A stretch of DNA of 37,864 bases from a virus: positions 1-37,864 of the IMG/VR virus record IMGVR_UViG_3300009702_000052. One strand, written 5' to 3'. This document shows positions 1 to 37,864 of the stretch, piece after piece. The position numbers and the translations under genes were made by a program. Under the pieces are notes generated by a model. The model saw only the letters and a program-made list of their open reading frames with translations, was not told where the DNA came from and searched no databases. Within the stretch, counting starts at the first letter, position 1, and every line of letters starts with the position of its first letter.

Positions 1-943
1 AAGCCGGTCTGGTTAAAGTTGCTCTCTTATAATCACCATATTCCTGAGTAGAAACAACGCTATAAATAGTGCCCGATTCATCAAAAGAAACTATATCATT
101 TTCCACAGCAAGCAATGTCCTGTCATTAGCAGTACCACCACGCCATTGAGCCTGTGAATATCCCCAATTAGCAACTGTAGTATCAAGGTCATCAATCACA
201 TATACACGATTTTTACCTGCACATAATAATCTGTCCCCATATTCAACAGCATTGATTATGCCGAATTGATCTCCTGTATCTATACTAATAGTAATAACAT
301 TCGCATCTGAAAAATCAGGTTCAGTTGAGCCATCTGAGGTATTAAGATCAGAAGCATATACGGTATACGGGTCTACAGCACCACCAATAGCCCACAAACG
401 CTCTGAAGATTCCCTGCCATGTTTAACCATCTTACGTGGATAATTAAGTCCAGTACTCCAATCTGTTGGCACATTCGTCAATGTTGATGTATTACCTGTA
501 CCTGTCCATACCTCCGGTAAATCATTTCCTGTGCAGATAATAAGTAAATTATTAAATGACTCGAAATGAACTGCCTGATTTATAGTAAGACCGGTCTTTA
601 TTTCAGTATTATAATCTTTCTGTATTTTGCCATCTGAAGTGGCTGTTATAATATATGAATTGCCGTTTTTAAGAGTAAACTGATAAATACCCCATATTCT
701 CGGTGTACCGGTAATTACCGTAGAATTAACATGATCAGTACCACCACGCTTAGACCTGCCTGATCTATGAAGATTTATGTTTCTGGAATTATCTACAAAT
801 GCATTAGCAGATAATTTATCTCGATTAAGATTATTATTAAACCCACCACGACTACAATCAATAACAAATGTCTGCCCTTCATATTGTGCATTTGCTATAG
901 AAGTAACTGACAATACAAATAAAATAATTAGTAGTTTTTTCAT
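1..943 (-). CDS. gp10-like tail stabilisation protein, 3' end beyond window
   Basis: A reading frame starts with ATG at 943 and runs off the left edge without a stop (314 codons seen). Residues 1-19 form a clear Sec signal peptide (MKKLL, hydrophobic core, IANA before Q). The next part has a GGFNNNLNRDKL stretch and an R-S-G-R-S-K-R-G-G-T motif like the N-terminus of P22 gp10 and related beta-propeller tail hub proteins. After this come beta-rich repeats such as YGDRLLCAGKNRVYVIDD. Its place directly downstream of a gp4-like gene fits gp10, which closes the portal channel after packaging. The signal peptide is odd for such a protein. The gp10 assignment rests on pattern and gene order, so it is probable rather than certain. 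Confidence 0.7.
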   Translation of the reverse strand, partial: MKKLLIILFVLSVTSIANAQYEGQTFVIDCSRGGFNNNLNRDKLSANAFVDNSRNINLHRSGRSKRGGTDHVNSTVITGTPRIWGIYQFTLKNGNSYIITATSDGKIQKDYNTEIKTGLTINQAVHFESFNNLLIICTGNDLPEVWTGTGNTSTLTNVPTDWSTGLNYPRKMVKHGRESSERLWAIGGAVDPYTVYASDLNTSDGSTEPDFSDANVITISIDTGDQFGIINAVEYGDRLLCAGKNRVYVIDDLDTTVANWGYSQAQWRGGTANDRTLLAVENDIVSFDESGTIYSVVSTQEYGDYKRATLTRPA

Positions 944-945
944 TT

Positions 946-1275
946 TTATTCTAATAATATCTGACTAGCATCTTCCAATAAAATATAACTACCTGATTCT
1001 AAAAGTAACGAGCCGGTTGTAGCCCATGTTGATATGGCCACACGCCGCCATGTATTTGTTGCCGTACAGATATAAAAATAAGTACTATCATACGCCACTT
1101 GTCCTTCTACTCCTGCACTACTTATTGTTGACGGCACAGATACATTGAAATCATCTAGTGTATTAGCTATCTTCTGTCTATGATCTACAAACGGATTCTT
1201 AATAGTCTTATCAGCAAAACTAAGATTACAATAAACAACTATCATTAATCCTGTAACAATAACCAATATTTTCAT
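946..1275 (-). CDS. small secreted phage structural protein
   Basis: 109 aa. Residues 1-21 are a signal peptide (MKILVIVTG, then NLSFA before D). The middle has the pattern VEGQVAYDSTYFYICTATN followed by TWRRVAISTW, a short beta motif of the GxxxYDxxYxYxCxxxxxWRR type that recurs in small virion and tail proteins of many phages. The C-terminus has repeated ILLE/LLLE units. It is packed between the gp4-like gene (next base) and the gp10-like gene (2-base gap), so the three are co-translated. The function is not known; a small head-tail or fibre component is an inference. Confidence 0.65.
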   Translation of the reverse strand: MKILVIVTGLMIVVYCNLSFADKTIKNPFVDHRQKIANTLDDFNVSVPSTISSAGVEGQVAYDSTYFYICTATNTWRRVAISTWATTGSLLLESGSYILLEDASQILLE

Positions 1276-1998
1276 TTAATAACCTCTATTATAATCCATT
1301 GATCTACTATACCTGTTACTGACAATCGCATTATCAAGAGATACCGTATCAGCAAGTTTCTCTATTGCATTATAATCCTCAAGCGCACGCTTACTCTCTA
1401 TAGCAATACGCCTGACATCATCACTTAGTTTACTTTTAAGTTCATTACCAAGTCTTAAAGCAAGATTATAAACCAATGTTTCATTTATCGCTAATGGCAG
1501 ACTTAATGTATCCGTTTTTGCCGTTACATCAGTAAGTGCCTTTTCTGATTGCATGTGGAAATCATATGCAGTGTCACATGCATCACTGAATTTTATCTTT
1601 CCGGTAGGATATTGTGGGTCGTAATAAAGTGATCTTGGTCTTAAATTTAAAGATTTCTGAGTAATTTTTGCATATTCACTCTTTGTCATATCCACATTAA
1701 TAGGATAATCAACACTACTTATTCTGAAAAATGCGTTTATTATTCTTAGAGGTCTGCCGGTACTCGTAACAAGATCAGGACTATCACCGATAACACCAAT
1801 AGTATATACTGCTTGCCCTACAGTAAGCGTAAAATTTTCCGTTACATAATTTGGTACGATAAGCCCTTCTACACTCCATGACGATAACATATCCTGAAAC
1901 GCTTCAAGTGCATATCCATCTTGAGTTGACGTAGGTGATTTTACCGCATTTTTGCGATATGCCGCATCAGTTATTTGATTTACTGTCCTATCAGGCAA
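1276..1998 (-). CDS. P22 gp4-like tail accessory / head completion protein
   Basis: 240 aa. Features shared with the P22 gp4 tail accessory factor family are an N-terminal helix with ALEAFQDMLSSWSVEGL, a central LTVGQAVYTIG strand, the PLRIINAFFR segment, YYDPQYPTGKIKF, and a helical end with INETLVYNLALRLGNEL. In P22, gp4 binds the portal after packaging and forms the platform for gp10 and the tail needle. The start is TTG: AGGAG lies 7 bases upstream (AGGAGAATAATTTTG) and no in-frame ATG is near. It follows the coat region and precedes the gp10-like gene, which supports the call. Confidence 0.85.
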   Translation of the reverse strand: MPDRTVNQITDAAYRKNAVKSPTSTQDGYALEAFQDMLSSWSVEGLIVPNYVTENFTLTVGQAVYTIGVIGDSPDLVTSTGRPLRIINAFFRISSVDYPINVDMTKSEYAKITQKSLNLRPRSLYYDPQYPTGKIKFSDACDTAYDFHMQSEKALTDVTAKTDTLSLPLAINETLVYNLALRLGNELKSKLSDDVRRIAIESKRALEDYNAIEKLADTVSLDNAIVSNRYSRSMDYNRGY

Positions 1999-3215: not shown

Positions 3216-3240
3216 AAAACCGCCTTTTCTATTAAAGATG

Positions 3241-3266
3241 TGGGAGTGGGTTTTATCCCACTCCCA
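3241..3266 (-). terminator. GC-rich hairpin after the 69-aa capsid-region gene
   Basis: Perfect 10-bp arms (TGGGAGTGGG / CCCACTCCCA) with a 6-base loop lie between the gene ending at 3275 and the glycosyltransferase start at 3215. On the minus strand the hairpin is followed by CATCTTTAATA, a weak T-tract. It could be a partial terminator that lowers expression below the capsid genes, or an RNA stabiliser. Confidence 0.5.
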
Positions 3267-3274
3267 TCTCAAAA

Positions 3275-3553: not shown

Positions 3554-4786
3554 CTATGTAGTTCGTACTCTTGCTGCCCATTCAGGTCTGATAGCTTTAG
3601 CTCCAAAAAGAACATCAATCCTGGTTCCGAACTCATCATTCTTGAAGTCTGAACCATGCCATATTCTCATGGATATACCATCCATAACCTCCCGACTCAT
3701 TCTCTGTCCAGGCTCAAGAGGCAAATCAGCAGTAACAAAAGTAAATGCATCACGGTGATAACAAAGATTCTGCCTTGAACTCGTACTTGCAGCACCACTA
3801 CCCCCGGCAGTAAGGTTTACAACTGCCTTACCGGAACCAGCAGATACTATTTCAACATTCTGTCTTGCACCTGAAGTATAAGGTGTAGGGGAAACCACAA
3901 TAGTATCATTTCCATTAAGAGTATAATCAGTAGTAACCACAAACTGTTGTAAAAATGACTGTCTTACTTTTGTTTCAAGATTAACCGCATATACACCTGC
4001 AATCGTGAATACATCACCTTCTTTTAATGTTTTAGCATTGGTAAACCCTGTAATAACAATACTTGAAGAACCACTTGTTATATCAGTAGATGTATTTACT
4101 ACCGGTGTGGTATCTGTTCTGGAACCATTAGTATGAGAAGGAATCATCTCGGTTTCAAGCCAGTCAAAACCTGCGGCATGGCCAACATATCCATCAAGAA
4201 AAGATTTCTCAATTTCAGCATTTGCATGAAAAAGAGTTTTCAATGTATCGGTTGTTGTTGACATTGCGCTCGCAGTTAACAGTGCATAGCGGTCAGTTCT
4301 CGGAGCAAGAAATTCAGTTAACCTTGCGCCTGCCCTGCGAATATCAATCAAAGCTGCCGGTTGCTTATCTACTGCCGTACCTACAATATTAAATACTTCC
4401 TTATACATAGAAGTAATAATCGTACTCTCTACATCAGCGGCAAGTCTTAACATTGCAGGTCGTAAGTATCTTGCCCTGAAATCCTCTATTTGCATGGTTT
4501 GTTCAAGCGAACTGAAAGATTCCATGTCAACACCCTTCTGCGTTGCAACTGTCAGGGTAGTGGTGTTTTCATCCGCTTCCTGCACATCCATAACCTTGCC
4601 TGTTCTTACAGTATACTGATTAGGATTCCTGATAAGCAGTGTTCCGTTGTTTTTATGTCCATCTCTACCGAATCTATTGTCGTATTGATTATTAATGGTT
4701 TTGAGGAAAGTCAACGCATTATGAAACTCTACCAACGCTTCCCTCGTAATATCACCATCAGATAAATCTTTTAATGTATTTGCCAT
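3554..4786 (-). CDS. Major coat protein, P22 gp5-like
   Basis: 410 aa, close to the 430 aa of P22 coat. The N-terminus MANTLKDLSDGDITREALVEFHN, the RNPNQYTVRTGKVMDVQEADENTTTLTV segment and the QIEDFRARYLRPAMLRLAADVE helix are typical of the P22-like HK97-fold coat family. The central part has a beta-rich Thr/Ser/Gly insertion region (about 215-330), comparable in place to the I-domain. The C-terminus contains GTRIDVLFGAKAIRPEWAAR, the usual end of this family. It follows the scaffold gene, and AAGGAGAAACTT gives a good ribosome binding site. It assembles with the scaffold and portal into the procapsid. Confidence 0.92.
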   Translation of the reverse strand: MANTLKDLSDGDITREALVEFHNALTFLKTINNQYDNRFGRDGHKNNGTLLIRNPNQYTVRTGKVMDVQEADENTTTLTVATQKGVDMESFSSLEQTMQIEDFRARYLRPAMLRLAADVESTIITSMYKEVFNIVGTAVDKQPAALIDIRRAGARLTEFLAPRTDRYALLTASAMSTTTDTLKTLFHANAEIEKSFLDGYVGHAAGFDWLETEMIPSHTNGSRTDTTPVVNTSTDITSGSSSIVITGFTNAKTLKEGDVFTIAGVYAVNLETKVRQSFLQQFVVTTDYTLNGNDTIVVSPTPYTSGARQNVEIVSAGSGKAVVNLTAGGSGAASTSSRQNLCYHRDAFTFVTADLPLEPGQRMSREVMDGISMRIWHGSDFKNDEFGTRIDVLFGAKAIRPEWAARVRTT

Positions 4787-4801
4787 AAGTTTCTCCTTAT
4801 A

Positions 4802-4848
4802 GGCAATACGTTAGTTCACCGCGTCTGCGATCACTTATCGTATTAGCC
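4802..4848 (-). other. Possible structured leader of the coat mRNA
   Basis: The 71-bp gap between scaffold and coat has near-complementary arms GGCAATACG (4802-4810) and CGTATTAGCC (4839-4848) around a GC-richer loop, just upstream of the coat ribosome binding site. It may tune coat translation; no function is shown. Confidence 0.25.
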
Positions 4849-4857
4849 CTGTTTAAT

Positions 4858-5730
4858 TTAAGATTTCTTTGCCCTCATCTCCGCATTTCTTGCCTTACGG
4901 AACTCACTGTTATCCTTTATATCATAAATAGATTTTATAACAGTCGAAGCCTCTCCCTTTACGGTATCAAGTGCTTTAGGAGCAGAGGTTGTTTTTTTCC
5001 GTACATTAGAAAATCGCTCTTCCAGTTTTCCAATCTCACGATTAATAATCGCTGCATCTGTCAAAGATGCTATTCTTGTTAATTCACTTGGGTTTTTAGC
5101 CAGGAAAAGCGCAATTCTAGCATTGTGTTCACTATCACTGATATATGGAGCTGCATTACCGAAACCATTTACATCTGCAACTGACGAAATAGTGTCGCTA
5201 ACATTGATATTAGGAAATCTCTTCTGTAATTCATCCATCTGAGCAAGAAGCCTATTATCATTTGCAGCTACACGACTTTCAGCCTCGGATTTCTGAGAAT
5301 TAGCTTTATTCACAGCAGCATTATAAGCAATAATATCGGATTGATACTTATCCATTGCCGCCTGATATTCCTCATCCTCTACAAAATTACGTTCAAGAGG
5401 AACAACAGGTTTCTCGGTAGGAATAGCTTTTTCCGCTTCCAATTCTGCTATCCTGGCTTTAGCCTTTCGAGCTTCCTCTTGGGCAATATTCCGCTCCTTA
5501 ATAGCATTGCCTATCTTGTTATTAATCCTGTCTTGCGCCTTTTCAGATACTCCAAGTACTTCCTCGTCTGTCTTTACAGCATCAGACCCTATATCCTCAA
5601 TACTAAACCCATTACCCTTTTCTTCTTCAGTAGCAGCCGTATCTACTTCTTGTGTGTCACCGGCTTTATCTTCAATTTGTTCTTCCCCAGGTTGTACAGC
5701 CTGTTCTGTTTCTTCTAATACTTCTGTCAT
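4858..5730 (-). CDS. Scaffolding protein
   Basis: 290 aa, strongly charged. Residues 1-60 are acidic (Glu/Asp rich), about 65-110 and 140-175 form coiled coils (KERNIAQEEARKAKARIAELEAEK), and the C-terminus is a basic helical segment (SEFRKARNAEMRAKKS). This acidic N-terminus, coiled-coil middle and basic C-terminus is the usual plan of P22-type scaffolds, whose C-terminal helices bind coat. Its start overlaps the portal stop by 4 bases (ATGA) and coat follows, which is the P22 order portal-scaffold-coat. Sequence identity is low in this family, so the call rests on composition and position. Confidence 0.8.
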   Translation of the reverse strand: MTEVLEETEQAVQPGEEQIEDKAGDTQEVDTAATEEEKGNGFSIEDIGSDAVKTDEEVLGVSEKAQDRINNKIGNAIKERNIAQEEARKAKARIAELEAEKAIPTEKPVVPLERNFVEDEEYQAAMDKYQSDIIAYNAAVNKANSQKSEAESRVAANDNRLLAQMDELQKRFPNINVSDTISSVADVNGFGNAAPYISDSEHNARIALFLAKNPSELTRIASLTDAAIINREIGKLEERFSNVRKKTTSAPKALDTVKGEASTVIKSIYDIKDNSEFRKARNAEMRAKKS

Positions 5731-7532
5731 TGTCCTTCTCCTACCCCGGTTTGAGCCCCCGGTTGGCCTTCCGCATTTTGCGGTTTAATTCCTAATAAAG
5801 CAGGCAAATTTGCATCTATCTTCTTTGCCAATTCCTGTGAACCATCCCAATCCTGTAATTTTGCAATATCACCGGCAAGGAATACTCCTAACATTGGATT
5901 ACCTGCTGCCAGTGCTTGCATGCCTACAAGCTGTTCCTGTCTGCGTGTAGACATTAATTTGATAGATTCTACAATATCATATTTTCCAATACTTAAATCA
6001 TTAAGTATTATCGGGTCTCCATTTCTATCAACAAACCCTGTATCAAAATTAATAGTAACCTGACTGTCTGTTTTTCCATCTTCTCCGAATATACGTTGTA
6101 TTCGTTCTGTATCGTAAAAATGAGGAATAACATCTATAAGCATTCGTGTAGATTTATTAATTGCTCGTCTAAAATTGTCAGGAAAGTGAAACGTACTGAC
6201 TTCCGACCTGTTCGCTCTTGCATCAATAGCAACTTTAGAACGCTCATTACTTTTCTGCCCGAAAGAAGCTTCAAATCTCCCGATAGTATCCATAATATTC
6301 TCTTTATGAATACTAAGCATGGAAGCCTCGCCAGTACTGATCTGAGGTGGTTCCACACGTTTAGGACCTCCGGGCATTTTAGTATCATGTTTAAATGATA
6401 GATATGGATAAAGTTTTTTATGTGCATATTTCCATATATGTTCTAATCCTGCAATCATCTTGGTTGTTACAAGGTAAGGCGCTTTACTTGCAAGTGCATA
6501 TCGTTCTGCAAGACTTGTAAGCCAGAAGTTATACATACGCTGATCATCATGTGCACCTTGTGTCAAATTACGCTTGTATAATTTACCGTCAATCCATACC
6601 CAATCACCTTCTACTTCTATAATCGGAATATCTTTGCCAGGCCATTCACCTTTAGACAATATTTGAGTACCGGTAATCTTTGCCCATTTAACAACAAACT
6701 TTTTAGGTGTTTTACTGTTTTCTATTCTCCAACCTGAAGCAGCAAGTTGCTCTTCAGTAACATTATCACGCTTTAAATCAAATATCCTTGCCTCTCCTAA
6801 TAGTTGCCCGGAAGGGTCAACTTTACGAACCTGTACTATTTTTGTTTTAACTCTTTCTTTATAAAAATATTCTCTTATATATAATGATTCTTCGTCATAC
6901 CATTGATCTCGATATTGAGCGTCAATATCAATATTTTCTTCATTTGCATCAGGATATTTATGTTTAAATTCATAACGACTTATCTTTTCATCTATAAAGG
7001 CAAACATGCCGTCAGGGTCTAAAGTAACTGAAAACGGATTACGGATTCCCTCTAAAAATAATTCCTGATCAAAACTATTGTCAAGTTCTTCAGACTTAAT
7101 ACGCCAATACCCTACATTGCCTGCAACCGCCTGCTCACCGGCCATCGTATATATTCTCTCTGCATCACTGGCATGTTCTATCTGACGAATTATCCCCGAT
7201 ATAATCCTTGCGATTTCAACATCACCTTCGCTATCAACAGGCCGTACGTTTCCAGCAATGCGTTGGTCACGTTCAGCGTTAGCAATTCCGGCTACAAATT
7301 TACGTAGTTGTCCAGAGGTAAGACATGGTCTGCCATCTCTCTTTCTCTGGTCACGATCTTCTTGAGACCACTGCCCTTCATCTATTTCATAAACAAAACG
7401 TAAGTTTTCCCTTGCTTGTTGACGATTGTGTTCGTCCTGACTAAACAGGCGTGCATATCGCTTCTGCGCAACTGAGAGAAAATTAACATCATCCTTTTTT
7501 AATATTTCACCTTCGGTTTCGTTTCCTGCCAT
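5727..7532 (-). CDS. Portal protein, P22-like
   Basis: 601 aa. It carries the N-terminal signature of the P22-like portal family: RDQRKRDGRPCLTSGQLRKF, then VAGIANAERDQRIAGNVRPV, IARIISGIIRQIEHASDAER, and AVAGNVGYWRI. The middle has LDPDGMFAFIDEKISRYEF and a long helical stem region with SEVSTFHFPDNFRRAINKSTRMLIDVIPHFYD. P22 portal is 725 aa, so this protein is shorter, mostly by lacking the extended C-terminal barrel. The portal forms the 12-mer vertex that docks terminase, then gp4. A strong terminator (7554-7594) lies just upstream in the transcription direction, so the portal may need read-through or its own promoter. Confidence 0.9.
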   Translation of the reverse strand: MAGNETEGEILKKDDVNFLSVAQKRYARLFSQDEHNRQQARENLRFVYEIDEGQWSQEDRDQRKRDGRPCLTSGQLRKFVAGIANAERDQRIAGNVRPVDSEGDVEIARIISGIIRQIEHASDAERIYTMAGEQAVAGNVGYWRIKSEELDNSFDQELFLEGIRNPFSVTLDPDGMFAFIDEKISRYEFKHKYPDANEENIDIDAQYRDQWYDEESLYIREYFYKERVKTKIVQVRKVDPSGQLLGEARIFDLKRDNVTEEQLAASGWRIENSKTPKKFVVKWAKITGTQILSKGEWPGKDIPIIEVEGDWVWIDGKLYKRNLTQGAHDDQRMYNFWLTSLAERYALASKAPYLVTTKMIAGLEHIWKYAHKKLYPYLSFKHDTKMPGGPKRVEPPQISTGEASMLSIHKENIMDTIGRFEASFGQKSNERSKVAIDARANRSEVSTFHFPDNFRRAINKSTRMLIDVIPHFYDTERIQRIFGEDGKTDSQVTINFDTGFVDRNGDPIILNDLSIGKYDIVESIKLMSTRRQEQLVGMQALAAGNPMLGVFLAGDIAKLQDWDGSQELAKKIDANLPALLGIKPQNAEGQPGAQTGVGEGQ

Positions 7533-25025: not shown

Positions 25026-25391
25026 CTATTGATTAATATTAATTGTAATTGTAATTGTCATTCCTCGCGGTACACCAGGTGCCGTAGTATCGGCTAGATA
25101 TGATACTTCTTTCGATAGTCCTGATTCATTGCCACTTAAATCAAATGCAGTTAAGACAAAATACCATTGTCCATCAGGAATAGTGATTGTAGCCGTTTCT
25201 ACGCCTGCAGGTACCTCTATAACCTCCTTGCCTTTGCCGGTAGTATATATGCTGGACGTTTGCGTCTTGTAAAGCCTATAGCCTGCAAGATCAGATTCTA
25301 AATTTTTATCCCATTTAAATGTAATTTCAGTATCTGCAAATACCTTACTACATATAAATAATATAAATATCATAAACAGTATTTTTTTCAT
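25026..25391 (-). CDS. Secreted fibronectin type III domain protein
   Basis: 121 aa from ATG at 25391, which overlaps the stop of the upstream 53-aa gene (ATGA). Residues 1-19 are a signal peptide (MKKILFMIFILFICSKVFA before D). The rest is one Fn3 domain: ITFKWDKNLESDLAGYRLYK, ATITIPDGQWYFVLTAFDLSGNES, GLSKEVSYLADTTAPGVP. Fn3 domains on phage virions are thought to bind cell-surface sugars weakly. The signal peptide instead predicts export. Confidence 0.75.
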   Translation of the reverse strand: MKKILFMIFILFICSKVFADTEITFKWDKNLESDLAGYRLYKTQTSSIYTTGKGKEVIEVPAGVETATITIPDGQWYFVLTAFDLSGNESGLSKEVSYLADTTAPGVPRGMTITITININQ

Positions 25392-25549
25392 CTTAAATCT
25401 TTCCATTCCGGAAAATTATCAAATTCCTCTTGTATAGTTCTTCTGATATCTTTAAGCTGTTTGCCAGATAATGCTTTGTTATCTCTTGCAAGTTTGATAA
25501 GGCTTATTAATAAAGTAATGCTTTCGTAAATAACTGGTGTAAGTGTCAT
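25388..25549 (-). CDS. 53-aa hypothetical protein of the lysis cluster
   Basis: The ATG at 25549 has AAGGAGGAATAA before it and overlaps the lipoprotein gene stop. The sequence MTLTPVIYESITLLISLIKLARD followed by KDIRRTIQEEFDNFPEWKDL is amphipathic. Start and stop overlaps on both sides show that it belongs to the operon. Function unknown. Confidence 0.6.
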   Translation of the reverse strand: MTLTPVIYESITLLISLIKLARDNKALSGKQLKDIRRTIQEEFDNFPEWKDLR

Positions 25550-25890
25550 TTATTCCTCCTTATAATCTTCTCTATTTCAGCCATAATAACCATTGCAGAA
25601 TCAAGAGATCTGTTATAATCATCTAAGCGTGCCAGAGAATCTTTATCAATCATATCTTCCCATATATTCTCTGACTGAATTAATATCTTTCTTGCCTGAG
25701 TATATAACTCCTTTGCCTTTTTACAATCTTTATCACTAAGTATACCCTGTTCACACAAATGTTTTGCAATTGTACCTGTTGTAATTACTGTATCTTTAGC
25801 AGTCATCAGCCCTATCCCGATATCTTTTTTAGTAATACTACTACATCCAATCAATAATAATAAAATAAATATTATAATGAATTTCTTCAT
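25546..25890 (-). CDS. Lipoprotein
   Basis: 114 aa. Residues 1-15 are a lipoprotein signal with lipobox LIGC (Cys16), followed by SSITKK. The mature part is helical with two Cys (HLCEQGILSDKDCKKAKEL) and ends in VIMAEIEKIIRRNK. In a phage lysis cluster a lipoprotein may act as an outer spanin or as an exclusion factor; it is longer than most Rz1 proteins. A role cannot be fixed from sequence. Confidence 0.75.
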   Translation of the reverse strand: MKKFIIIFILLLLIGCSSITKKDIGIGLMTAKDTVITTGTIAKHLCEQGILSDKDCKKAKELYTQARKILIQSENIWEDMIDKDSLARLDDYNRSLDSAMVIMAEIEKIIRRNK

Positions 25891-25893
25891 GGA

Positions 25894-25950: not shown

Positions 25951-25970
25951 ATATACACTCCTAAATAATA

Positions 25971-26033: not shown

Positions 26034-26039
26034 TAACCT

Positions 26040-26514: not shown

Positions 26515-26525
26515 TTTATTCCTCC

Positions 26526-27476
26526 TTAATTATAAAGATAAGATAAATCATTGTTTATCAAGTTATTTATGTATTGACTGATTATTATTATACGCCTTCC
26601 GGTGGGTGGTACAGCAGCAGGAGCTTTGTAATATCTCCTTACAAGTCTCAAATCCGCCATAGGGTATGTGTATAGCTGCCAAATTTCTGAATCTAATAAA
26701 ATACGATTATATAGGCGAACATCATTAATGAGACCATTGAATGGTATATCCGGTGCAGGGTCATCAGTATCACCAATCTGTAATTTAGCTGTTGTATCAG
26801 AAAACTGCGTGAATGTTCCTTTACTCCAACCCCTCACGCCAATCTCTTGGATGCCATTGATATACAATTTGGCTTTGTTAGTTATGTCTCCAGAAATACT
26901 AGCGTCAAATGTTAGAGTAACAAATGTCCATGTTTGAGATATTGTATTTGTAGATATAACGGTATCACCATTACTCAAACTTAAATCACTCCCAAAGAAA
27001 TCAATCTTTCCCGCAGAGGTTACCCTAAATGCATATGCACGGTTACCTGTAGAAGAATTATATTTAGTCACAATCGCTTGCGCTGTAGTCAATGAGTTAG
27101 TATGTATCCATGCTGTTATCGTCATTACACCAGATGAACCAATATGTGGTTCAAGTGTAGCATTATCATTCATTATTACCTTATCGTTCGTCCCATCAAA
27201 ATCCAGCGCATAACCATTCCTGCCTACAACCCAAGCCGCACTAGTCATATTAGTTAATGTGCCATCATTCCCATAACCGGACACATCAAATAATGTACTG
27301 CCTTGCACACCTAAACTAGGAACCCAATGCCCAACTTTACCATCCCATAAATTAGCAGCAGAAGGTATACACTCAGAAGCGTTATGTGCATATCCCTGAT
27401 CAAATGAAGGTATGTAATCTTGAGAATATACATTTACAGAAAATAGCAATATAAAAATGAATAATAATTTTCTCAT
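26526..27476 (-). CDS. Secreted LamG/concanavalin A-like lectin protein
   Basis: 316 aa. Signal peptide at 1-18 (MRKLLFIFILLFSVNVYS before Q). Residues about 60-270 form a LamG-type jelly roll: GYALDFDGTNDKVIMNDN, MTITAWIHTNSLTTAQAIVT, WTFVTLTFDASISG, KLYINGIQEIGV, and FNGLINDVRLYNRILLDSEI. Such domains bind glycans and are common in phage appendages. Its ATG overlaps the stop of the 192-aa gene. It is likely a receptor-binding or surface-binding protein; the signal peptide makes its location uncertain. Confidence 0.8.
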   Translation of the reverse strand: MRKLLFIFILLFSVNVYSQDYIPSFDQGYAHNASECIPSAANLWDGKVGHWVPSLGVQGSTLFDVSGYGNDGTLTNMTSAAWVVGRNGYALDFDGTNDKVIMNDNATLEPHIGSSGVMTITAWIHTNSLTTAQAIVTKYNSSTGNRAYAFRVTSAGKIDFFGSDLSLSNGDTVISTNTISQTWTFVTLTFDASISGDITNKAKLYINGIQEIGVRGWSKGTFTQFSDTTAKLQIGDTDDPAPDIPFNGLINDVRLYNRILLDSEIWQLYTYPMADLRLVRRYYKAPAAVPPTGRRIIIISQYINNLINNDLSYLYN

Positions 27477-28051
27477 GGCTGGATTTCTGGCGGAACAGGG
27501 GTTAATGTTATAGTATGCGCTCCGCCTGTAAGCAATGTACTTGTACTTGCAGCATTGTTATGAACAACAGGAGCTACATATCTTAAAGGTAATCTTACAA
27601 TACCATTTTTTCTTATATTATCTCCTGCCGTTATAGATACTGCCTTAGCTATTCCGGCAAGTGTGCAGTTTTTTGCCTGATCGGTTGTTATTGTACCTTC
27701 TGATGTATCATTGGGGCCGGAGGAAGGTTCTCCTGCAAAATGCGTGGTATCAGTTCCCATAGTGAAATACAATTCAATCGGGTCTCCAAGCGTTGGAGCA
27801 GTATCATAACCATCTATAAATATTTCCCATCTGTACCATTCTGATCGTGGAGCGACTCCGAAATCGTGATATGCACCTAAGTCAATAGCGTCTTGTGCTA
27901 AACCACCTAAATCCAGAACCTCATCACCACCAGAGGCTTTCCATACAACAGAAGTTTCAGGATTTATATAAACTTTATTAGCAGCTATACCAATTACCGC
28001 AAAACAAAATATTACAATAAATAAAATTAATCGTTTTCTTATAAATTCCAT
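27473..28051 (-). CDS. Secreted virion-type structural protein
   Basis: 192 aa. Signal peptide at about 1-24 (RKRLILFIVIFCFAVIGIAA). The mature part is beta-rich: VVWKASGGDEVLDLGGLA, EWYRWEIFIDGYDTAPTLGDPIELYF, NGIVRLPLRYVAPVVHNNA, HTITLTPVPPEIQP. This resembles small appendage proteins found in podovirus and siphovirus gene clusters beside fibre genes. Function unknown. Confidence 0.65.
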   Translation of the reverse strand: MEFIRKRLILFIVIFCFAVIGIAANKVYINPETSVVWKASGGDEVLDLGGLAQDAIDLGAYHDFGVAPRSEWYRWEIFIDGYDTAPTLGDPIELYFTMGTDTTHFAGEPSSGPNDTSEGTITTDQAKNCTLAGIAKAVSITAGDNIRKNGIVRLPLRYVAPVVHNNAASTSTLLTGGAHTITLTPVPPEIQP

Positions 28052-28065
28052 ATCTTTCTCCTTAA

Positions 28066-28521
28066 TTATGGTAGTTTTGCTTGAATTACATTACCTACAG
28101 TAATCTTTCCAATACCAAGTTCCTGACCTCTTGTAATATTATTTTTTCTTGCTGCTTTCAGATTGGTAATAGTTGCACTGCCAGCCCCAAATACATTTAC
28201 AAATATATCAGCTTCAATACCAAACGGATTAACATTTCCAATATGCAATACATTCCATATCTTTGTCTGATCTGCAACTGTTAGAGCATCAAATTCAGTC
28301 TTGCTTATTGCATTTAAAACCTCTGTCGCTGTCATTAAAGCCTTGTTAGACGTGCGATATATAGTATTCATATCTGTCGCAATTTGTTCATTTGTCATAA
28401 CGGAATATCCTCTTGCAAGTGGGTCTGTGGTTATTTCTGATTTTAACAAGGCTATTTTATCCGCATATACACTAGTACAAAACAATAATAAAACTGCAAT
28501 TAATAAAATAATTCTTTTCAT
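28066..28521 (-). CDS. Conserved phage structural protein with added signal peptide
   Basis: 151 aa from ATG at 28521 (GTGGAGAAATAACTATG). Residues 1-20 are a signal peptide (MKRIILLIAVLLLFCTSVYA before D). The rest, LLKSEITTDPLARGYSVMTN, EQIATDMNTIYRT, PFGIEADIFVNVFGAGSATI and LGIGKITVGNVIQA, matches a small protein family widespread in phage tail-fibre neighbourhoods. From memory, its usual members begin directly at the LKxEIxTDPLxRGY motif without a signal sequence. Confidence 0.75.
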   Translation of the reverse strand: MKRIILLIAVLLLFCTSVYADKIALLKSEITTDPLARGYSVMTNEQIATDMNTIYRTSNKALMTATEVLNAISKTEFDALTVADQTKIWNVLHIGNVNPFGIEADIFVNVFGAGSATITNLKAARKNNITRGQELGIGKITVGNVIQAKLP

Positions 28522-28523
28522 AG

Positions 28524-30659
28524 TTATTTCTCCACAATTAATGAAATAGTACAACGTGTTATAGTAGTTGCCGAATTAACATTATATCTTAAAATATCTC
28601 CTGCTGTTAATGCTGTAGTCCATCCGGTTAATGTAGTATCCTGTGATTTAACAGCAGTCGTAATTGTAGGAATCGCTGCTGCTGTTATACTATCTACAAC
28701 TGTAGGAGGATAATTTACATAAGTATCTTTCCATATATCTACAACAATAGAACCTGATGTATCGGCTAATAATGTTACTCTTTTTATCGTACAGTTGAAT
28801 GGTACTTCAATATCACCACTAACTCCGGTGGTTATTACACTTCCTCCGCCATCTATAATAAATTCTATTGAACTACGTACTATATCAGAACCTGCAAGCA
28901 TATTCCCTTCATCAAAGTTCGTATAGGTATTTCCAGTTCCATTAGCATCCACTGTTTTATTAGTAAATGTATTAGTTGTTGCATTTCCGGCAATCGTATC
29001 ATCGCTGACCGCAGTATTAAGCTCTGCAACTGTAAAAGAACCAAGTGAAGTAGCATTTCCAACAGAAGTTACATGTCCGGTCAGATTCGCATTAGTTGTT
29101 ACTGTATCCGCATTACCTGTTAAATTTCCTACAAAAGACCCAGCTGTCAATGCATTAGTTGTAGCATTATATGTCAATTCCGCATCAGTAGCAGGGGCAA
29201 GCGAACCTGTTGCTGCCGTTCCTAAGGATACAAACGTTGTCGTATCACCCGCCGCATCTGCATGGGTTACTGTTCCCGCATTACCTGAAACTGTTGTCTG
29301 ATCACCTGTGTTATTGCCGGACAATACAGTAAGTCCAGATAGAAGATTTAATTCAGTAGAAGTTACAGACGAATCTGCAATATCAGCCGTATTCACTGTA
29401 GCATTAAGCGTGCCGGCAGTAATAGATAATAATGTACCTTCTATATCAGTACAGGTTGTAGCATCAGTGACAGCAGTTACGCCTGCCCCAAAGAAGTCTA
29501 CCGCTGCATCACCAGTAAGAGCATTACCTGCCTCTGCATCACCGGCAGCATAATAACCTGTAGTATTTGTAGTTAATGCAACTTTATCAGCACCTATGGT
29601 TGTTACACCAGCATTTGTCATGGTAACATCACCAGACATTGCAACATAGTTAGCCGTATCTGTACCTGTACCAACTAACATCTCAGTATTTAATATTCCT
29701 GTGATTACCGATTCTAAAGAGTTAGTCTCAGCTCCACCGGCATCTGCAGCCCATGTAAAATTACTACCTGCTGCATTATAACTTAAAACAAAATTATCTG
29801 TAGGTGTGTTGGTGACATTCAAATCTGCTTCTAAAATCTCATTGTCTGTAATCTCGCTTGATGTGATTGCCGTTCCTAACGTTGCCGCTAATGTTAACGC
29901 TGCGCCTTCTGAACCCGCATCACCGCCAGTTATCCCACTTCCATTGGTTATAGATGCAACAAAATTTCCAACTGTATCAGTAGCTAATGTGACTGAGTTT
30001 GCCTGTACAGAATCGACTGTAGTTGCTCCTGTTGTTCCTCCAACATCACCGGCAAGAGTTGTAGCAGATGTGATTACTGTTCCGGTTTCATCTGGAAATG
30101 TAATTGTTTTATCTGAAACCGTTGGGTCTGCAAAGGTAAGTAATGTCTCTATGGCATCCCCTGTTGAACCTTCTGCAATCAATCCTGTAGTTGCAAACCA
30201 TATTGAATTAATCGGGTGTGCAGGATTTCCGGCTAATGTATCTGTGTCATCTATGTCTGCTTGATCTACCGTTCCGTCTGTGATTTCTGTAGTATCTATT
30301 GCTGTTCCTAATGTAGATACCACTGTTTTAGTAACACCTTCACCATCTGCTTCTGCAATAGTTATTCCTGTGCCTGCCGCTACCGTTCCTACATAATTGC
30401 CTGTAGTGTCTGTGGTAAGTGCTACTCCGTTGGCAACTATAGCACCTGTAGAATCCAAGTCAGCAGCAACGCCTAATAATGCACCTATATTGATCTTTTT
30501 ACTTACAGGTGTAACATCCGGATTATCAACAATATACATATCATCAGATACAGTTGGTGAAACTATATCCGTCAATGCTGATACCTTAGTATCTGCTGCA
30601 TGTACCGAAGTAGTTGCAAATAATATAAGTATTGCAATTATTTTAAATAGTTTGTTCAT
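28524..30659 (-). CDS. Long repetitive tail-fibre-like protein with signal peptide
   Basis: 711 aa. Signal peptide at 1-21 (MNKLFKIIAILILFATTSVHA). The start of the mature part (DTKVSALTDIVSPTVSDDMY, IVDNPDVTPVSKKINIGALL) is typical of phage fibre proteins. After that come many Thr/Gly/Asp-rich beta repeats (for example TLAGDVGGTTGATTVDSVQAN, VTLATDTVGNFVASITNGSG). Residues 600-711 form a distinct tip (DGGGSVITTGVSGDIEVPFN, RVTLLADTSGSIVVDIW). It is likely a trimeric fibre or adhesin. The signal peptide suggests export through Sec. Confidence 0.75.
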   Translation of the reverse strand: MNKLFKIIAILILFATTSVHAADTKVSALTDIVSPTVSDDMYIVDNPDVTPVSKKINIGALLGVAADLDSTGAIVANGVALTTDTTGNYVGTVAAGTGITIAEADGEGVTKTVVSTLGTAIDTTEITDGTVDQADIDDTDTLAGNPAHPINSIWFATTGLIAEGSTGDAIETLLTFADPTVSDKTITFPDETGTVITSATTLAGDVGGTTGATTVDSVQANSVTLATDTVGNFVASITNGSGITGGDAGSEGAALTLAATLGTAITSSEITDNEILEADLNVTNTPTDNFVLSYNAAGSNFTWAADAGGAETNSLESVITGILNTEMLVGTGTDTANYVAMSGDVTMTNAGVTTIGADKVALTTNTTGYYAAGDAEAGNALTGDAAVDFFGAGVTAVTDATTCTDIEGTLLSITAGTLNATVNTADIADSSVTSTELNLLSGLTVLSGNNTGDQTTVSGNAGTVTHADAAGDTTTFVSLGTAATGSLAPATDAELTYNATTNALTAGSFVGNLTGNADTVTTNANLTGHVTSVGNATSLGSFTVAELNTAVSDDTIAGNATTNTFTNKTVDANGTGNTYTNFDEGNMLAGSDIVRSSIEFIIDGGGSVITTGVSGDIEVPFNCTIKRVTLLADTSGSIVVDIWKDTYVNYPPTVVDSITAAAIPTITTAVKSQDTTLTGWTTALTAGDILRYNVNSATTITRCTISLIVEK

Positions 30660-30671
30660 TTGTTATTTCCT

Positions 30672-33485
30672 TTATCTTGAAAGAAGTGTATTTATTTCAT
30701 TATCTAATGTGGCTTCATCCTCATTGTTATTTTTTAAATTAGCAGCAGGAATAACACCTGCACTCACAGCAGGTTTTTTAAATTCTAAAGTGTTCTTAAT
30801 ATTTTTACCTGCTCCTCTTGCTTGTTTTGATGCAAAAGATTTGACATCTGAAACTGTTACAGATTTTACTTTGTCAACAAGTTGTTTAACAAGTGCTTCC
30901 TGATTTGCAGCAGGAATATTTTCTAGTTTTTTAAGAAGGTTATCCATTACTTTCTTATCTTTTATTGCTAATATGAGTAATTTTTCCGATTCATCATTAG
31001 TTAATGCTTTAGAAAATCGACCACCAACTCCTGCTGCAATATTTGCTTCTTGCAGTGAAGTTCCAAATCCAGTACCAATACCAAGTTTTCTCTTCACTGT
31101 GCTTGTAAGTCTAACTGCCAATATTTTTAATAAATTAGTTTGGAAGAAACTTGGTATATCATTTATTATAGCTCCAGGTGATTTAGCACTTGCATTAATA
31201 TTTATTTTATCAAAAACATCAGCTATTCGTTTAAATCTTTTAATATCAGGAATAGTAAAAACTTTTGCTTTTACTAATTCAGAACCAAATTTACTCAAAG
31301 CATTAATTAACTTTTTGCCATCAATCGCATCTCCTTTTCTTGCCATATCAAATAGTTTTGTAGCAACTGCTGTTTTAAATCCTTCAATCGCCTTTCCTGT
31401 TGGGTCTTGGGATAATTTTTTTGTTATCTCTGCAAATCCTTCTATTCTCTTACTTCTCATGTTAAATAACGCAGTTGCTTCTTCATCAGGATTAGCTTTC
31501 AAGAAAGTGGCAACTGCTGATCTTTCTTTTATTAAAGGTGAAATATCAGAAAGACGAGTTGTTCCAAGAAAATCATCGACACTTGATTGCTTTTTTATTG
31601 CTGATTGTATCTCTGCTTTAAGATCAGGAAATACACCTGTTAATAATTCATCAAAATTCTTTAAAAAACGGTTTCCTGCTGTCGCATTTATAACACCACC
31701 TGTTTTATTCTGCGTTGCCAATGCAAACTGGACTTTAATAAAATCTTCTATTTCCTCTTTTGCTCCCGGAGTTCCTTTTAATGCCTGTTGAACAGCAGTT
31801 TTTCCTTTTTGGCCTTTTGCACCAACCAATATATCTAATGCTTTCGATGGGTCAGGAGTTTCTCCTCCTGCAAATCCTAATATTTTTCCAATATCACCGT
31901 TAGTAAATTTATTATTCAAATCTTTAGAAAACTCAATTGCCTTTCTATATGAGGATGAAAGATTTGCTTCATCAAGATCTTTCAGTGCAGCTTCTCTTAA
32001 ATCTCTCAATATCCTAATTTTATTCCTAGTTCCTGGCTGTCTTGATAAAATACTCATTTCACGTCCAAGTTCAGAATAAAAAGCATGAATCGCCTTTGCA
32101 GATGCAGTTGTTTTATTGTCATTAAATAATTCACCTGCTTTAATTTGTCTTACTGTTTTAGATTTATCAATATTTGCAAATTCTGTTATATCTTTTTTTG
32201 TTTCTTTGCCAGTAATATTATCTATTCTTTTTGACTTAGTACCGGTTCTTATATCTGATTTTGATATTATTCGTTTTGTTCTTTTAAAATCGCCTAGTTT
32301 TTCAATTACAAAATCACTTACCTGTTTTTTTGACCCACCTTCTGTAATGTTTGCTATAATATTTCTATGTTCTCGTATTAAATTTGACCCTCCTGCCAAT
32401 TCATTAGTAGGTAGATTATTCCATACTTTTCTTTCTACTAGAGATGCCTTATTAAATGAATCTCTAATCTTGTTAGTTGCCCTTTCCGCTAATACTGATG
32501 AATTGCTGACAGTTTCAAGTCTTTCTGCTGTCTTTCTTGCCGCAAGTGCTTTATTAGTTAATTCCGCCTCTAAGAACATTCTAGCATCATCAACATTACC
32601 TGTGCCTTTAAATTTTGTCTCTAAATTTTTTGCTAATTTTATATTTCTTGCAACTTCTTTTGCTTGAAATGCCGGGTCAGCAGCTTCTACTGCTTTACCT
32701 ATTCTTGCAATCCCTGGACTTCCCGCAGCTTGTGCCACAGAAAGCGATTTACCTTCTGGTGAAACTGCTTCTTTTGCTAAATTTGCCCTTGCTAATCCCG
32801 GAGATGGCACTTCTTTTTGAAGCTTAGACAAAACTCTTTTTTCTGTACTTGGCAATAAACCTTTTGCTTTTTTAACTCCTTTTTTAACTCCTTTTTTAGC
32901 AAGACTAACACCAATACCAATTCCACCTCCTTTTTCAGCTATATTTGTAACCGCCTTCGCACTAGATGGACTAAGACCTCCTAATAATTCTCCAATAGCC
33001 CTTGCCAACACAGGGTGTTTTCTTCCAAATCCTGTCTCTTGTGCTAACTTGCCACCAATTGCAGCAGTTACTGCTGCTACTGATTCCATCCCTGCTACTG
33101 ATGGTCCTAAAACCGGAAGTAATGGTCCTGATGTACCAAGATTCTGTGTTATTCTTGATGCCAAATCTTGAGGTTCTTCACCAGGAGCAAAAGTGATACC
33201 TTGATTAGAACCAGCCTTCAATATTTGTTTCGTTGTGGGCAATATAGAAAATTCTTTTGTATTAGATAAATCTTTCTTCTTAAAACCAACAAGATCGAGT
33301 AATTTGGCTTCTCCTGTATCTAACAAATCTACTGCCGCTCTTGGTAATCCAAATAATCTAGCAACACCTGTATTAAAATTTTTTAATATTTTTTCTTGTG
33401 ATTGCCCGAATTTTTGAATAAATCCCATTGCTTCCGGTGAACCTGATTCTCCAAGTGATTGATTTAATTCTTCAAGAGTTGCCAT
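30672..33485 (-). CDS. Large internal virion / DNA ejection protein
   Basis: 937 aa, mostly alpha-helical and Lys/Glu/Ala rich. A Gly/Ala-rich N-terminal third has short hydrophobic stretches (ITQNLGTSGPLLPVLGPS, GMESVAAVTAAIGGKLAQETG). It also has KKGVKKGVKKAKG from a short DNA tandem repeat (about 32865-32900). Size, composition and position between three other long helical genes and the fibre genes fit gp16/gp20-type ejection proteins of P22-like phages. I see no lytic transglycosylase motif. Exact homology cannot be shown here. Confidence 0.6.
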   Translation of the reverse strand: MATLEELNQSLGESGSPEAMGFIQKFGQSQEKILKNFNTGVARLFGLPRAAVDLLDTGEAKLLDLVGFKKKDLSNTKEFSILPTTKQILKAGSNQGITFAPGEEPQDLASRITQNLGTSGPLLPVLGPSVAGMESVAAVTAAIGGKLAQETGFGRKHPVLARAIGELLGGLSPSSAKAVTNIAEKGGGIGIGVSLAKKGVKKGVKKAKGLLPSTEKRVLSKLQKEVPSPGLARANLAKEAVSPEGKSLSVAQAAGSPGIARIGKAVEAADPAFQAKEVARNIKLAKNLETKFKGTGNVDDARMFLEAELTNKALAARKTAERLETVSNSSVLAERATNKIRDSFNKASLVERKVWNNLPTNELAGGSNLIREHRNIIANITEGGSKKQVSDFVIEKLGDFKRTKRIISKSDIRTGTKSKRIDNITGKETKKDITEFANIDKSKTVRQIKAGELFNDNKTTASAKAIHAFYSELGREMSILSRQPGTRNKIRILRDLREAALKDLDEANLSSSYRKAIEFSKDLNNKFTNGDIGKILGFAGGETPDPSKALDILVGAKGQKGKTAVQQALKGTPGAKEEIEDFIKVQFALATQNKTGGVINATAGNRFLKNFDELLTGVFPDLKAEIQSAIKKQSSVDDFLGTTRLSDISPLIKERSAVATFLKANPDEEATALFNMRSKRIEGFAEITKKLSQDPTGKAIEGFKTAVATKLFDMARKGDAIDGKKLINALSKFGSELVKAKVFTIPDIKRFKRIADVFDKININASAKSPGAIINDIPSFFQTNLLKILAVRLTSTVKRKLGIGTGFGTSLQEANIAAGVGGRFSKALTNDESEKLLILAIKDKKVMDNLLKKLENIPAANQEALVKQLVDKVKSVTVSDVKSFASKQARGAGKNIKNTLEFKKPAVSAGVIPAANLKNNNEDEATLDNEINTLLSR

Positions 33486-34925
33486 TTATAAATTCTCCAA
33501 TTCTACGAGCCTATTTCTTAATAATACCTTTTCTTCTCTATTAACATCATTCAAATCAATTTCTCTTATGTCATTTTTAGTCATAGTAGAAACATCTGTT
33601 TTATTTAAAACACGATTTGTTTTCAGTTTAATCTCCGCAGTTGATGGCAATTGCCCCAATAACGATAATGATTTATTTATAGCATTAGTAACATGTTCTC
33701 TCTGTGTTACGCTCATTTGACTATTGTTTAACTGATCTTGTCCGCTAATAACTGCATTTTCCAATCTATTTACAAGACCAAGAAGATTAGTAATATTTTC
33801 TGAAGGGTCAGAAAGATCGGTTTTAAGTAAAAATTTATCAATTGTTTTAAGTTCTGATATTGCATTTCTATCTGTAATCGTAAGTCCTGCTTTTACAAAT
33901 TGATTAAATGACTTAATAGCGGTCTTTGCTGCTGCTGTTTTTGGAGCTACTTCTACTCCGGCAATTGTTAAAGCACCTGCAACAAAATTAATAGCAGACC
34001 TTGCTGCCGCTATAGCTCCAGTTCCTAACTGCGCCTGTTCTGTAGTCAATAATCTTCTGTCCTTATTTCTTTTTCTCACATCTGCAATAAGTTGTTCCCC
34101 TGTTTGTCCTGTAGGTGGCAATGTTTTTGGCTGTTGATTACTTAACCTATTAAATTCATTAAGCACTTCCTGTTGTGTAGCACCAGCACCTACATTTTCA
34201 CGGGCAGTATTTAATAATTGTTGCGCTTCGGTTTTAGCGCCGACTTGCACGCCACTATTCACACCTCTATTCTTATCTATTTTACTTTGAGTTAAGTTAC
34301 TCTGCTGATTTTGACTCATCAATTCATTTACCCTGGCATTTATCCTATTACTAGCTTCTTGACTTCCACCGGCAAACAGATTAGCATTATTTCTAGCAAA
34401 TTCGGCTACTTGTTGTGTTGAGTTTTTACCACCGCCCAAACTATTTGCAATAACTCTTGCCTGAAAATCAATTATTCTATCCTGTTCCTTTTTTTGCGAA
34501 GCACGACCTGCCTCTAATTGTCCTCGTAATAATTCATTCTCTCCGAATTTATTCTCAAATTGAGTCAGCAATGATTGAGTATTTCTTAATAGTTCAGGAG
34601 TAAAGTTTCCTTTTGCTTTTAATAACATATTGGATATTTTCTTTGCTTCTGCTCTTTGGGGTAAAGCCTCTTCAATTGTAGAAACTCTGACAGGTATATC
34701 ATTTATTTCATTAAACTTATTGACAGCGTTTACAATTGTTTCATCCGATTGATTAGGGTCTGCAATAAGAGTGGCCAATCTTTGTGTATTATTTAATTTA
34801 TCTTTAATCTTTGCAGACTTTGCCTGTCTATTTGATTCTTGTTGTGAAAAAATAGCATTGCTAATACCACCATTAGCAGTAACTCCACGCCCTGCACCAC
34901 CCAGTAATCCGCCTAAAACACTCAT
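33486..34925 (-). CDS. Putative ejection protein
   Basis: 479 aa. It starts with a Gly-rich segment (MSVLGGLLGGAGRGVTANGG), then long Gln/Asn-rich helices (SKIDKNRGVNSGVQVGAKTEA), a mid segment with GAIAAARSAINFVAGALTIA, and a helical end. Its stop is 1 base from the next gene. Similar Gly-rich starts and low-complexity helices are seen in phage internal proteins such as P22 gp7 and gp20. The assignment is by context. Confidence 0.55.
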   Translation of the reverse strand: MSVLGGLLGGAGRGVTANGGISNAIFSQQESNRQAKSAKIKDKLNNTQRLATLIADPNQSDETIVNAVNKFNEINDIPVRVSTIEEALPQRAEAKKISNMLLKAKGNFTPELLRNTQSLLTQFENKFGENELLRGQLEAGRASQKKEQDRIIDFQARVIANSLGGGKNSTQQVAEFARNNANLFAGGSQEASNRINARVNELMSQNQQSNLTQSKIDKNRGVNSGVQVGAKTEAQQLLNTARENVGAGATQQEVLNEFNRLSNQQPKTLPPTGQTGEQLIADVRKRNKDRRLLTTEQAQLGTGAIAAARSAINFVAGALTIAGVEVAPKTAAAKTAIKSFNQFVKAGLTITDRNAISELKTIDKFLLKTDLSDPSENITNLLGLVNRLENAVISGQDQLNNSQMSVTQREHVTNAINKSLSLLGQLPSTAEIKLKTNRVLNKTDVSTMTKNDIREIDLNDVNREEKVLLRNRLVELENL

Positions 34926-34936
34926 ATTTATACTCC

Positions 34937-35677
34937 CTATGGAATTGATATGTTAGTTGCCCCTGGAAATAATTGTCTAATTAATCCTACTTTTGCTGCA
35001 TCGCCTAATAAACCACCAAAACCACTTATATTTGACTGTGTATTTTGTGCTTGTATTTGTGCATTTTGAGCAGCACTTTTTAATAATCCACCACCGCCAC
35101 CAATATCAAACCTATTAGGAGCTTCAAGAAGAGACTTCCTTTGATTAAATAATAAATTGTTAAAAGTATTTCCACTATTTAACAATCCGGTAATTGCCCT
35201 ATTTTTTCTATCTTGCTGTTCTGCGCTTACCTGTAGACGTTCATTACGTGATGCATTGGCTAATGATTGTATAGCTGGCGTGCTAAAACCTACCCCTGTA
35301 TCTAAGTTAGTACCTGCGACCGGCTGACCTCTTCTGGCAAGAGTTTCTTTTATAATATCAAATCTCTGTTTACTCCGTTGTTTCTGAAATTCTGTTTTCT
35401 GACCGGAAAAAGCCTTATCTATTTCATTCAATTGCGATTTGAAAGTATTAAATATACCTTGTTGTATTGGGTCTAAAGAATCGAATTTTTCCTGTTCTGT
35501 TAATGGTATCAAAGAACCATCTGTTTGATTAGTTTTAAATCCTAGTGTATGTAGAACAGACTCTGAAAGATTTCCTGTTTCCGCAATTCTTTTCTGTAGA
35601 CCTTCAAGAAATAATCCTTGAAGTGAAATCTCAAACGCAGAAGGTTCAACTGCTGTCCCTAGAAATATATTTGCCAT
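34937..35677 (-). CDS. Putative ejection protein
   Basis: 246 aa. The N-terminal half is helical (SLQGLFLEGLQKRIAETGN). The middle has KETLARRGQPVAGTNLDTGV, a stretch of a type common in phage internal proteins, then SALANASRNERLQ-like helices and a Gly-rich region (IGGGGGLLKSAAQNAQIQAQ). It sits between two other low-complexity virion genes. Likely an injected or internal virion protein. Confidence 0.55.
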   Translation of the reverse strand: MANIFLGTAVEPSAFEISLQGLFLEGLQKRIAETGNLSESVLHTLGFKTNQTDGSLIPLTEQEKFDSLDPIQQGIFNTFKSQLNEIDKAFSGQKTEFQKQRSKQRFDIIKETLARRGQPVAGTNLDTGVGFSTPAIQSLANASRNERLQVSAEQQDRKNRAITGLLNSGNTFNNLLFNQRKSLLEAPNRFDIGGGGGLLKSAAQNAQIQAQNTQSNISGFGGLLGDAAKVGLIRQLFPGATNISIP

Positions 35678-35679
35678 AA

Positions 35680-37173: not shown

Positions 37174-37864
37174 TTATTTTTTTTTAATCCAGACAGGTTT
37201 TACTTTAGGAGTATAAACTTTGGGAACTTTTATACTATTTCTCTGTCTTGTTTTTTCTTTTATAATATCTTCATCTACTTCAACTGCTATCTCTGCATCT
37301 AATTTATTGATTTTCGCAATAGCAGAATCAATCTCTTCTTGTCTTTTAGTCACAGCATCTGATTGATTAACGTTCCAATCTTCTATTTTTAAATTGCTTC
37401 CTGTACGTAAATTATAATCTTCATAAGTTTCTACAAACCGAAATTTTATATCATTTCCAATAGGTAATGGTTTTCCTTCAAGCATTAATTGTATTAAATT
37501 ATCTTTCCTGGTCTCATTTATAAATATGATTTCACCTTTATAACCATTGGCAACTCTATGCATTTCATCAAGCCCCTTGCCTCTATCATACATCCAATCA
37601 GGCGCATCTTTAGCATGTGGCGATAAAGTAGTAACATTTCCTATTTCATCTCGAACTCTTAATTCCGAACTAGATGATACATCTTCCGCATAAAGCTGAA
37701 CCATATTTGCCGGACTTGAAGATGGTGCCGTGCCGTTCGCAATACCAATAACACTGGCAGCACCTGTTCCAAATGTTGCTGTCCCAATACCCATATTGCC
37801 ATTACCCATACTAATATTACCGTTTTCATAAATAGTCAGGTCAGTTTGCACTGTTGTATCTACG
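37174..37864 (-). CDS. Tail fibre-like protein, C-terminal part (5' end beyond window)
   Basis: The frame is open to the right edge; the GTG at 37851 is probably internal, since VDTT precedes it in frame. It contains GIGTATFGTGAASVIGIANG, ANMVQLYAEDVSSSSELRVR and DEIGNVTTLSPH, a motif set found near the C-terminal end of many phage fibre and appendage proteins. The last part is helical and basic (KIEDWNVNQSD, PKVYTPKVKPVWIKKK). It precedes the ejection genes in transcription order. Confidence 0.65.
   Translation of the reverse strand, partial: VDTTVQTDLTIYENGNISMGNGNMGIGTATFGTGAASVIGIANGTAPSSSPANMVQLYAEDVSSSSELRVRDEIGNVTTLSPHAKDAPDWMYDRGKGLDEMHRVANGYKGEIIFINETRKDNLIQLMLEGKPLPIGNDIKFRFVETYEDYNLRTGSNLKIEDWNVNQSDAVTKRQEEIDSAIAKINKLDAEIAVEVDEDIIKEKTRQRNSIKVPKVYTPKVKPVWIKKK

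Follow-up and report, generated by a model that had tools for sequence, protein, structure and literature searches.

Predicted Sec signal peptides on the tail hub and most outer-tail proteins of a P22-type phage

The window, that is, the whole 37,864-base stretch of a virus record that we analysed, carries a P22-type head module on the minus strand. Within this module, the coat, scaffold and portal genes (3554..7532, minus strand) were identified by profile matches for the portal (PF16510, E = 4e-123) and the coat (PF11651, E = 9e-30) and by position for the scaffold; none of them encodes a signal peptide (SP), and they served as the control set. A gp4-type head-tail adaptor, also without an SP (1276..1998, minus strand), marks the edge of the SP-bearing module, which continues with a 109-aa tail protein (p109; 946..1275, minus strand) and the tail hub, a protein of the P22 gp10 type (2..943, minus strand; homologs A1 and A4). 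The hub gene is truncated by the window start, and its 314 N-terminal residues are present. Both proteins begin with a predicted SP, located at 1213-1275 in p109 (cleavage SFA/D, where the slash denotes the predicted cleavage site, here and below) and at 887-943 in the hub (ANA/Q). The C-terminal half of p109 matches PHROG tail protein 17312, and SP-bearing homologs are encoded in L005 and L069. On the other side of the adaptor, at 2029-3278, two adjoining frames (146 and 270 aa) correspond to the two halves of a gene that is undivided and about 400 aa long in L002 and L022, so the gene, the second part of which contains a Methyltransf_24 domain, may be frameshifted or split in the window.

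The first-pass annotation had placed the SPs at 1-1275. They are present there but are not confined to this region: six more late or tail proteins with SPs are encoded at 25026-30659, all on the minus strand. The largest of these is a 711-aa fibre-like protein (28524..30659; SP 30597-30659, cleavage VHA/AD), which matches a PHROG virion structural protein and has an SP-bearing homolog in L005. Next to it are a 162-aa late protein (p162; 28066..28521; SP 28462-28521), listed as an ORF of 162 aa at 28066-28554, for which the internal ATG at 28521 was taken as the start; a 192-aa late protein (p192; 27473..28051; SP 27980-28051); and a 316-aa protein (p316; 26526..27476; SP 27423-27476, cleavage VYS/Q) with a lectin domain of the LamG/concanavalin-like type (PF13385, E = 1.2e-18) and a syntenic homolog without an SP in L118. 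p316 is a candidate for glycan binding by the tail. The set is completed by a 114-aa predicted lipoprotein (25546..25890; lipobox LLIG/C), which may be a lysis gene instead of a tail gene, and a 121-aa protein (25026..25391; SP 25335-25391) that starts at the internal ATG 25391, resembles fibronectin III by eye and weakly matches PHROG minor tail protein 11445. For the 162-, 192-, 316- and 121-aa proteins, gene order points to a location in the virion. Four large genes without SPs (937, 479, 246 and 494 aa; 30672..37164, minus strand) occupy the ejection-protein position, and their putative function is assigned from that position only; they are followed by the C-terminal part of a fibre-like protein, identified by eye, the start of which lies beyond the window end (37174..37863, minus strand). 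Genes of the tail module are thus cut at both ends of the record (hub, 1-943; fibre, 37174-37863), which looks nearly complete with a small gap; judging by the gene order, the two ends are likely neighbors in a permuted genome, with the gap between them. No tRNA was found in the window.

SPs were called with a rule-based detector. In its calibration on 39 genes of E. coli K-12, it called 10 of 12 encoding exported proteins, none of 23 encoding cytosolic proteins and 1 of 4 encoding membrane proteins; it separates cleavable SPs from signal anchors incompletely. Among homologs of the head proteins, no calls were obtained for portal (0/82), scaffold (0/37) or coat (0/95), and 8 of 36 glycosyltransferase-like homologs were called with low scores that look like false positives. 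The N-termini of the hub, MKKLLIILFVLSVTSIANA/QYEGQT, and of p109, MKILVIVTGLMIVVYCNLSFA/DKTIKN, each comprise n-, h- and c-regions, and the earlier description of both as complete SPs is borne out by coordinates, strand, detector and shuffling alike. The observed score was reached by none of 2000 shuffled sequences for the hub and by 7 of 2000 for p109 (0.0035), which excludes chance as the origin of these two SPs, and by 0 of 2000 for the other SP proteins of the window.

Altogether, SPs are found on 8 of the 9 late/tail genes (hub, p109, the 711-, 162-, 192- and 316-aa proteins, the 114-aa lipoprotein and the 121-aa protein) and on none of the 9 head, packaging, neck and ejection genes (Fisher P = 4e-4, a descriptive value given that this grouping was set after the pattern was seen); enrichment against all other ORFs of at least 100 aa yields a Fisher value of 5e-7. 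The sequence criteria for Sec and signal peptidase I are a basic n-region, a hydrophobic h-region and small residues at -3 and -1, all of which are present, and the h-regions are strongly hydrophobic, with a mean Kyte-Doolittle value of up to 3.9. Hence, the hub, p109 and the late/tail proteins are predicted substrates of Sec and signal peptidase I that would be exported and cleaved, with predicted mature N-termini (pyroGlu)QYEGQTFVIDCSR, AADTK and NKVYINPETSVVWK. We considered and rejected SAR (signal-arrest-release) domains, which are weakly hydrophobic, uncleaved and located on a lysis enzyme, whereas the segments described here are strongly hydrophobic, have cleavage motifs and belong to structural proteins. 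Under the Bacteroidetes Q-rule, most substrates have glutamine at +1; here, it occupies that position in the window hub, p316, the L002 hub and an L002 287-aa protein, and other residues are found elsewhere; this mixture, along with strong Shine-Dalgarno motifs, argues against assigning a Bacteroidota host on the basis of that rule. A search of genome contigs for the host using the coat retrieved only distant or unassigned contigs. One contig titled Candidatus Rokuibacteriota and binned as a bacterial genome (L032) shares ORF lengths and order with the viral contigs L056-L058 and is probably a phage contig.

The hub had been labelled gp10-like, an assignment that sequence profiles did not show (no Pfam match, no PDB profile match, and weak PHROG matches to 'virion structural protein') and that the predicted fold of a homolog confirms. 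An AlphaFold model of the full-length, 548-aa L002 hub homolog (pLDDT 81) aligned with the solved hubs of Pa223 (VIA-align Z = 30.1), VP1 (27.5), P22 gp10 (26.4) and Sf6 (25.6), and Foldseek comparisons with the same four hubs gave E values from 2e-16 to 6e-21. The fold is alike over about 435-455 residues, whereas sequence identity is only 12-13%. The gene also occupies the same position as those of P22 gp10-type hubs, downstream of the genes for portal, scaffold, coat and gp4. Because members of this family retain their fold much more than their sequence, we base the assignment on structure and gene order and, with the fold modelled for the L002 homolog, regard the window hub as a genuine member of the P22 gp10 fold family. 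The difference lies at the N-terminus: the window and L002 hubs have a 19-23-residue SP in front, whereas the first residue of the known hubs is the one that follows the cleavage site. In the L002 model, residues 1-25 have no confident structure (pLDDT near 30), the folded part extends from residue 28, and residues 1-2 of the solved hubs are aligned to model positions 26-28, which implies that the SP is an extension ahead of a normal hub. Neither the window nor L069 showed a second, SP-less copy of the hub; as the hub occurs once in the contigs examined, it must reach virions.

Comparison with SP-less homologs indicates how this extension arose. SP-less hub homologs in IMG/VR start with M-G/S/P/A-Y-x-G-x-T or similar where the window reads A/QYEGQT, within a few residues of the predicted cleavage site. 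The first-pass view that an SP is unexpected on a P22-type hub was right. In a tree of 25 hubs, the window and L002 hubs group together (support 98/95) and are nested within SP-less hubs, such that one change is required. From these starts and the tree, the predicted hub SP is a derived addition, acquired a single time on the branch that leads to the window and L002. The DNA encoding the SPs of these two hubs is similar (z = 7.7), and they look homologous, the sole such pair among those compared. We rejected the spread of one SP cassette by duplication, because the similarity of SP DNA within the same genome is modest and may reflect shared composition only.

The same pattern recurs in other genes. 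p192 reads GIAA/NKVYINPET, and its SP-less homologs in L118 (MPNKVYINPET) and L119 (MPNNKVYINPET) start exactly after the cleavage site (homolog match E = 5e-42); its predicted fold is of low confidence (pLDDT 64), with weak beta-sandwich matches only. The L002 574-aa fibre continues after its SP with VYPYTNTYT where the L003 homolog starts MGYPYSMTYT. For p162, the pattern is less sure and rests on gene order, the similarity to its syntenic SP-less neighbor in L118 being weak (E = 0.28). In the L118 block of 162-like, 192-like and LamG-like genes, no SP is present on any. In L005, the SPs of the homologs of the 711-aa fibre and p109 are diverged but complete, with h-region and cleavage site kept, as expected if selection maintains the SP. 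The charge after the cleavage site does not distinguish SP-bearing hubs (-1) from SP-less ones (-2 to +3). Oxidative folding as the reason for the SPs was rejected, because cysteine counts are not clearly different between SP-bearing and SP-less hubs.

That most homologs start downstream raises the alternative that translation really begins beyond the hydrophobic segments, or that the contig is misassembled. A clear Shine-Dalgarno motif is lacking at the hub ATG, which fits such an artefact; this ATG lies 2 bases past the p109 stop, an arrangement that suits coupled translation. In-frame start-type codons in the hub N-terminus are the ATG at codon 1 and a sole TTG at codon 11, inside the h-region; there is no in-frame ATG, GTG or TTG at the junction. 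Shine-Dalgarno motifs precede most SP start codons (p192 AAGGAG, p162 GGAG, lipoprotein AAGGAG, L002 fibre GGAGG). The lack of alternative starts near the hub junction and the presence of Shine-Dalgarno sites together make a start-site artefact unlikely, and eight genes of the same anatomy plus a hub SP in the independent contig L002 argue in the same direction, leaving the artefact very improbable. The first-pass annotation had held that homologs lacking the segment, with conserved downstream starts, would count against the SPs. Such homologs exist, but the window SPs stand: with no ATG or GTG at the hub junction, these homologs attest to recent SP addition instead.

The distribution among relatives is patchy. 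An SP-bearing hub is found in two lineages, those of the window and L002. In L069 (the L002 contig), SPs are encoded by each of the five genes that separate gp4 from the ejection genes, and by no other gene there; L003 and its kin have no SPs. A strict score threshold yields an SP-bearing gene downstream of gp4 in 6 of 45 distinct loci. Strong SPs occur on fibre-like or uncharacterized proteins of P22-type environmental phages (L006:5824-7986, L024:11530-12846, L029:7013-9253, L090:2403-4003); the neighboring hubs in L006, L024 and L029 have no SP, and no hub was identified in L090. The annotated tail genes of named phages (7 records, L007-L013) showed no strong SP. Searches of a phage collection with the window tail proteins returned zero or single distant matches, and searches for relatives with p162, p192 and the ejection protein gave few matches.

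Three features that can be read from the sequences call for explanation, namely, the predicted SPs, their restriction to one set of genes, and their apparent addition at or near the starts of SP-less homologs. Our preferred reading, to which we assign a probability of about 0.4, is that in this P22-type phage the hub and most outer-tail or late proteins gained cleavable Sec SPs, so that the tail would be exported and joined to the heads at lysis. The hub and the outer-tail proteins would be targeted to Sec and cross the inner membrane, signal peptidase I would trim the exported chains, leaving mature chains equivalent to normal tail proteins, and the hub and fibres would fold in the periplasm. 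Filled heads closed by portal and gp4 would meanwhile accumulate in the cytoplasm and, conjecturally, the two halves would meet once holin and endolysin break the membranes. The stricter version, in which the whole outer tail including the hub has moved to the periplasm via Sec and the virion is built in two compartments that join only at lysis, we put forward with slightly more reserve. Export, cleavage and joining at lysis account for both the boundary of the SP set and the mature ends equal to those of SP-less homologs. Of the three readings offered by the first-pass annotation, which also named export for another role and a membrane anchor in the virion, assembly of the tail late, at the inner membrane or beyond it, fits best, given that the SPs span the outer tail and stop at the head/neck boundary and that the hub must end up in virions. 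Its chief difficulty is DNA retention without a cytoplasmic hub: the P22 gp10 hub helps retain packaged DNA, so hub export would need another DNA plug.

An alternative is that the SPs act, but inefficiently or late. A part of each protein would then stay in the cytoplasm and assemble normally onto heads, which the hub has to reach, and the exported remainder would either occupy receptors of the infected or lysogenic cell, giving superinfection exclusion, or protect progeny from debris. L006 and L024, with their SP fibres beside SP-less hubs, agree with such divided targeting and suggest that fibre export may predate hub export; however, the very hydrophobic h-regions favour efficient co-translational export, and receptor blocking leaves the hub SP unexplained, so we consider this alternative rather unlikely. 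The first-pass annotation had also envisaged a membrane anchor in the virion. Uncut N-termini could provide an assembly platform by tethering hub and fibres to the inner membrane, or stay in the virion and aid penetration of the next host, and the hydrophobic segment on every L002 outer-tail protein is compatible with this, but good AXA-type cleavage sites lie where SP-less homologs start, the solved hubs begin at the cleavage position with no obvious room for an extra hydrophobic segment, and one protein has a lipobox. An anchor is disfavoured on these grounds and appears decidedly unlikely. Similarly improbable is a function mainly on the host cell, with any virion role secondary, in the manner of the Bdellovibrio MAT adhesins, in which an SP is followed by phage-fibre-like domains (PMC10769870). 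The LamG and fibronectin-III-like SP proteins of the window lend themselves to this idea, but the hub is a structural component of the virion with no second, SP-less copy, and the SP genes sit within the structural module.

MAT fibres are exported bacterial surface adhesins, with a conserved beta-rich domain of about 130 aa after the SP, a trimeric fibre and often an S74 tip (PMC10769870). An SP and fibre-like modules are common to them and the window proteins, likened here by description; MAT fibres, however, are bacterial gene products that appear on the surface of the cell that makes them, whereas the window genes are viral. To our knowledge, no hub or virion genes lie alongside MAT fibre genes. 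The part of a report on Porphyromonas gingivalis phages available to us describes genes with Sec SPs, some with a +1 glutamine, that encode capsid proteins (thought to be cut by the prohead protease), spanins and proteins with no assigned function (PMC10367356). In that part, these genes are scattered and no tail-wide pattern is reported (PMC10367356), in contrast to the window.

The literature we searched, with most subscription journals outside its reach, yielded no description of a tailed phage with SPs throughout its tail. Filamentous phages assemble at or beyond the inner membrane from virion proteins, pIII and pVIII, that carry cleavable Sec SPs, as those of the window are predicted to do, but they are unrelated, non-lytic and lack heads and tails, whereas the window represents a DNA-packaging tailed phage. 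Tailed-phage assembly is taught as cytoplasmic, and the exported, late-joining tail proposed here has no counterpart in any tailed phage known to us.

If our preferred reading is correct, tail assembly can be spatially separated from head assembly, which would raise the questions of how DNA is kept inside filled heads and why the phage bears such a cost. The apparent gain of export signals is coordinated, lineage-specific and includes the hub, the component adjacent to the DNA exit, and tail-fibre-like proteins with predicted SPs recur among the relatives of this phage.
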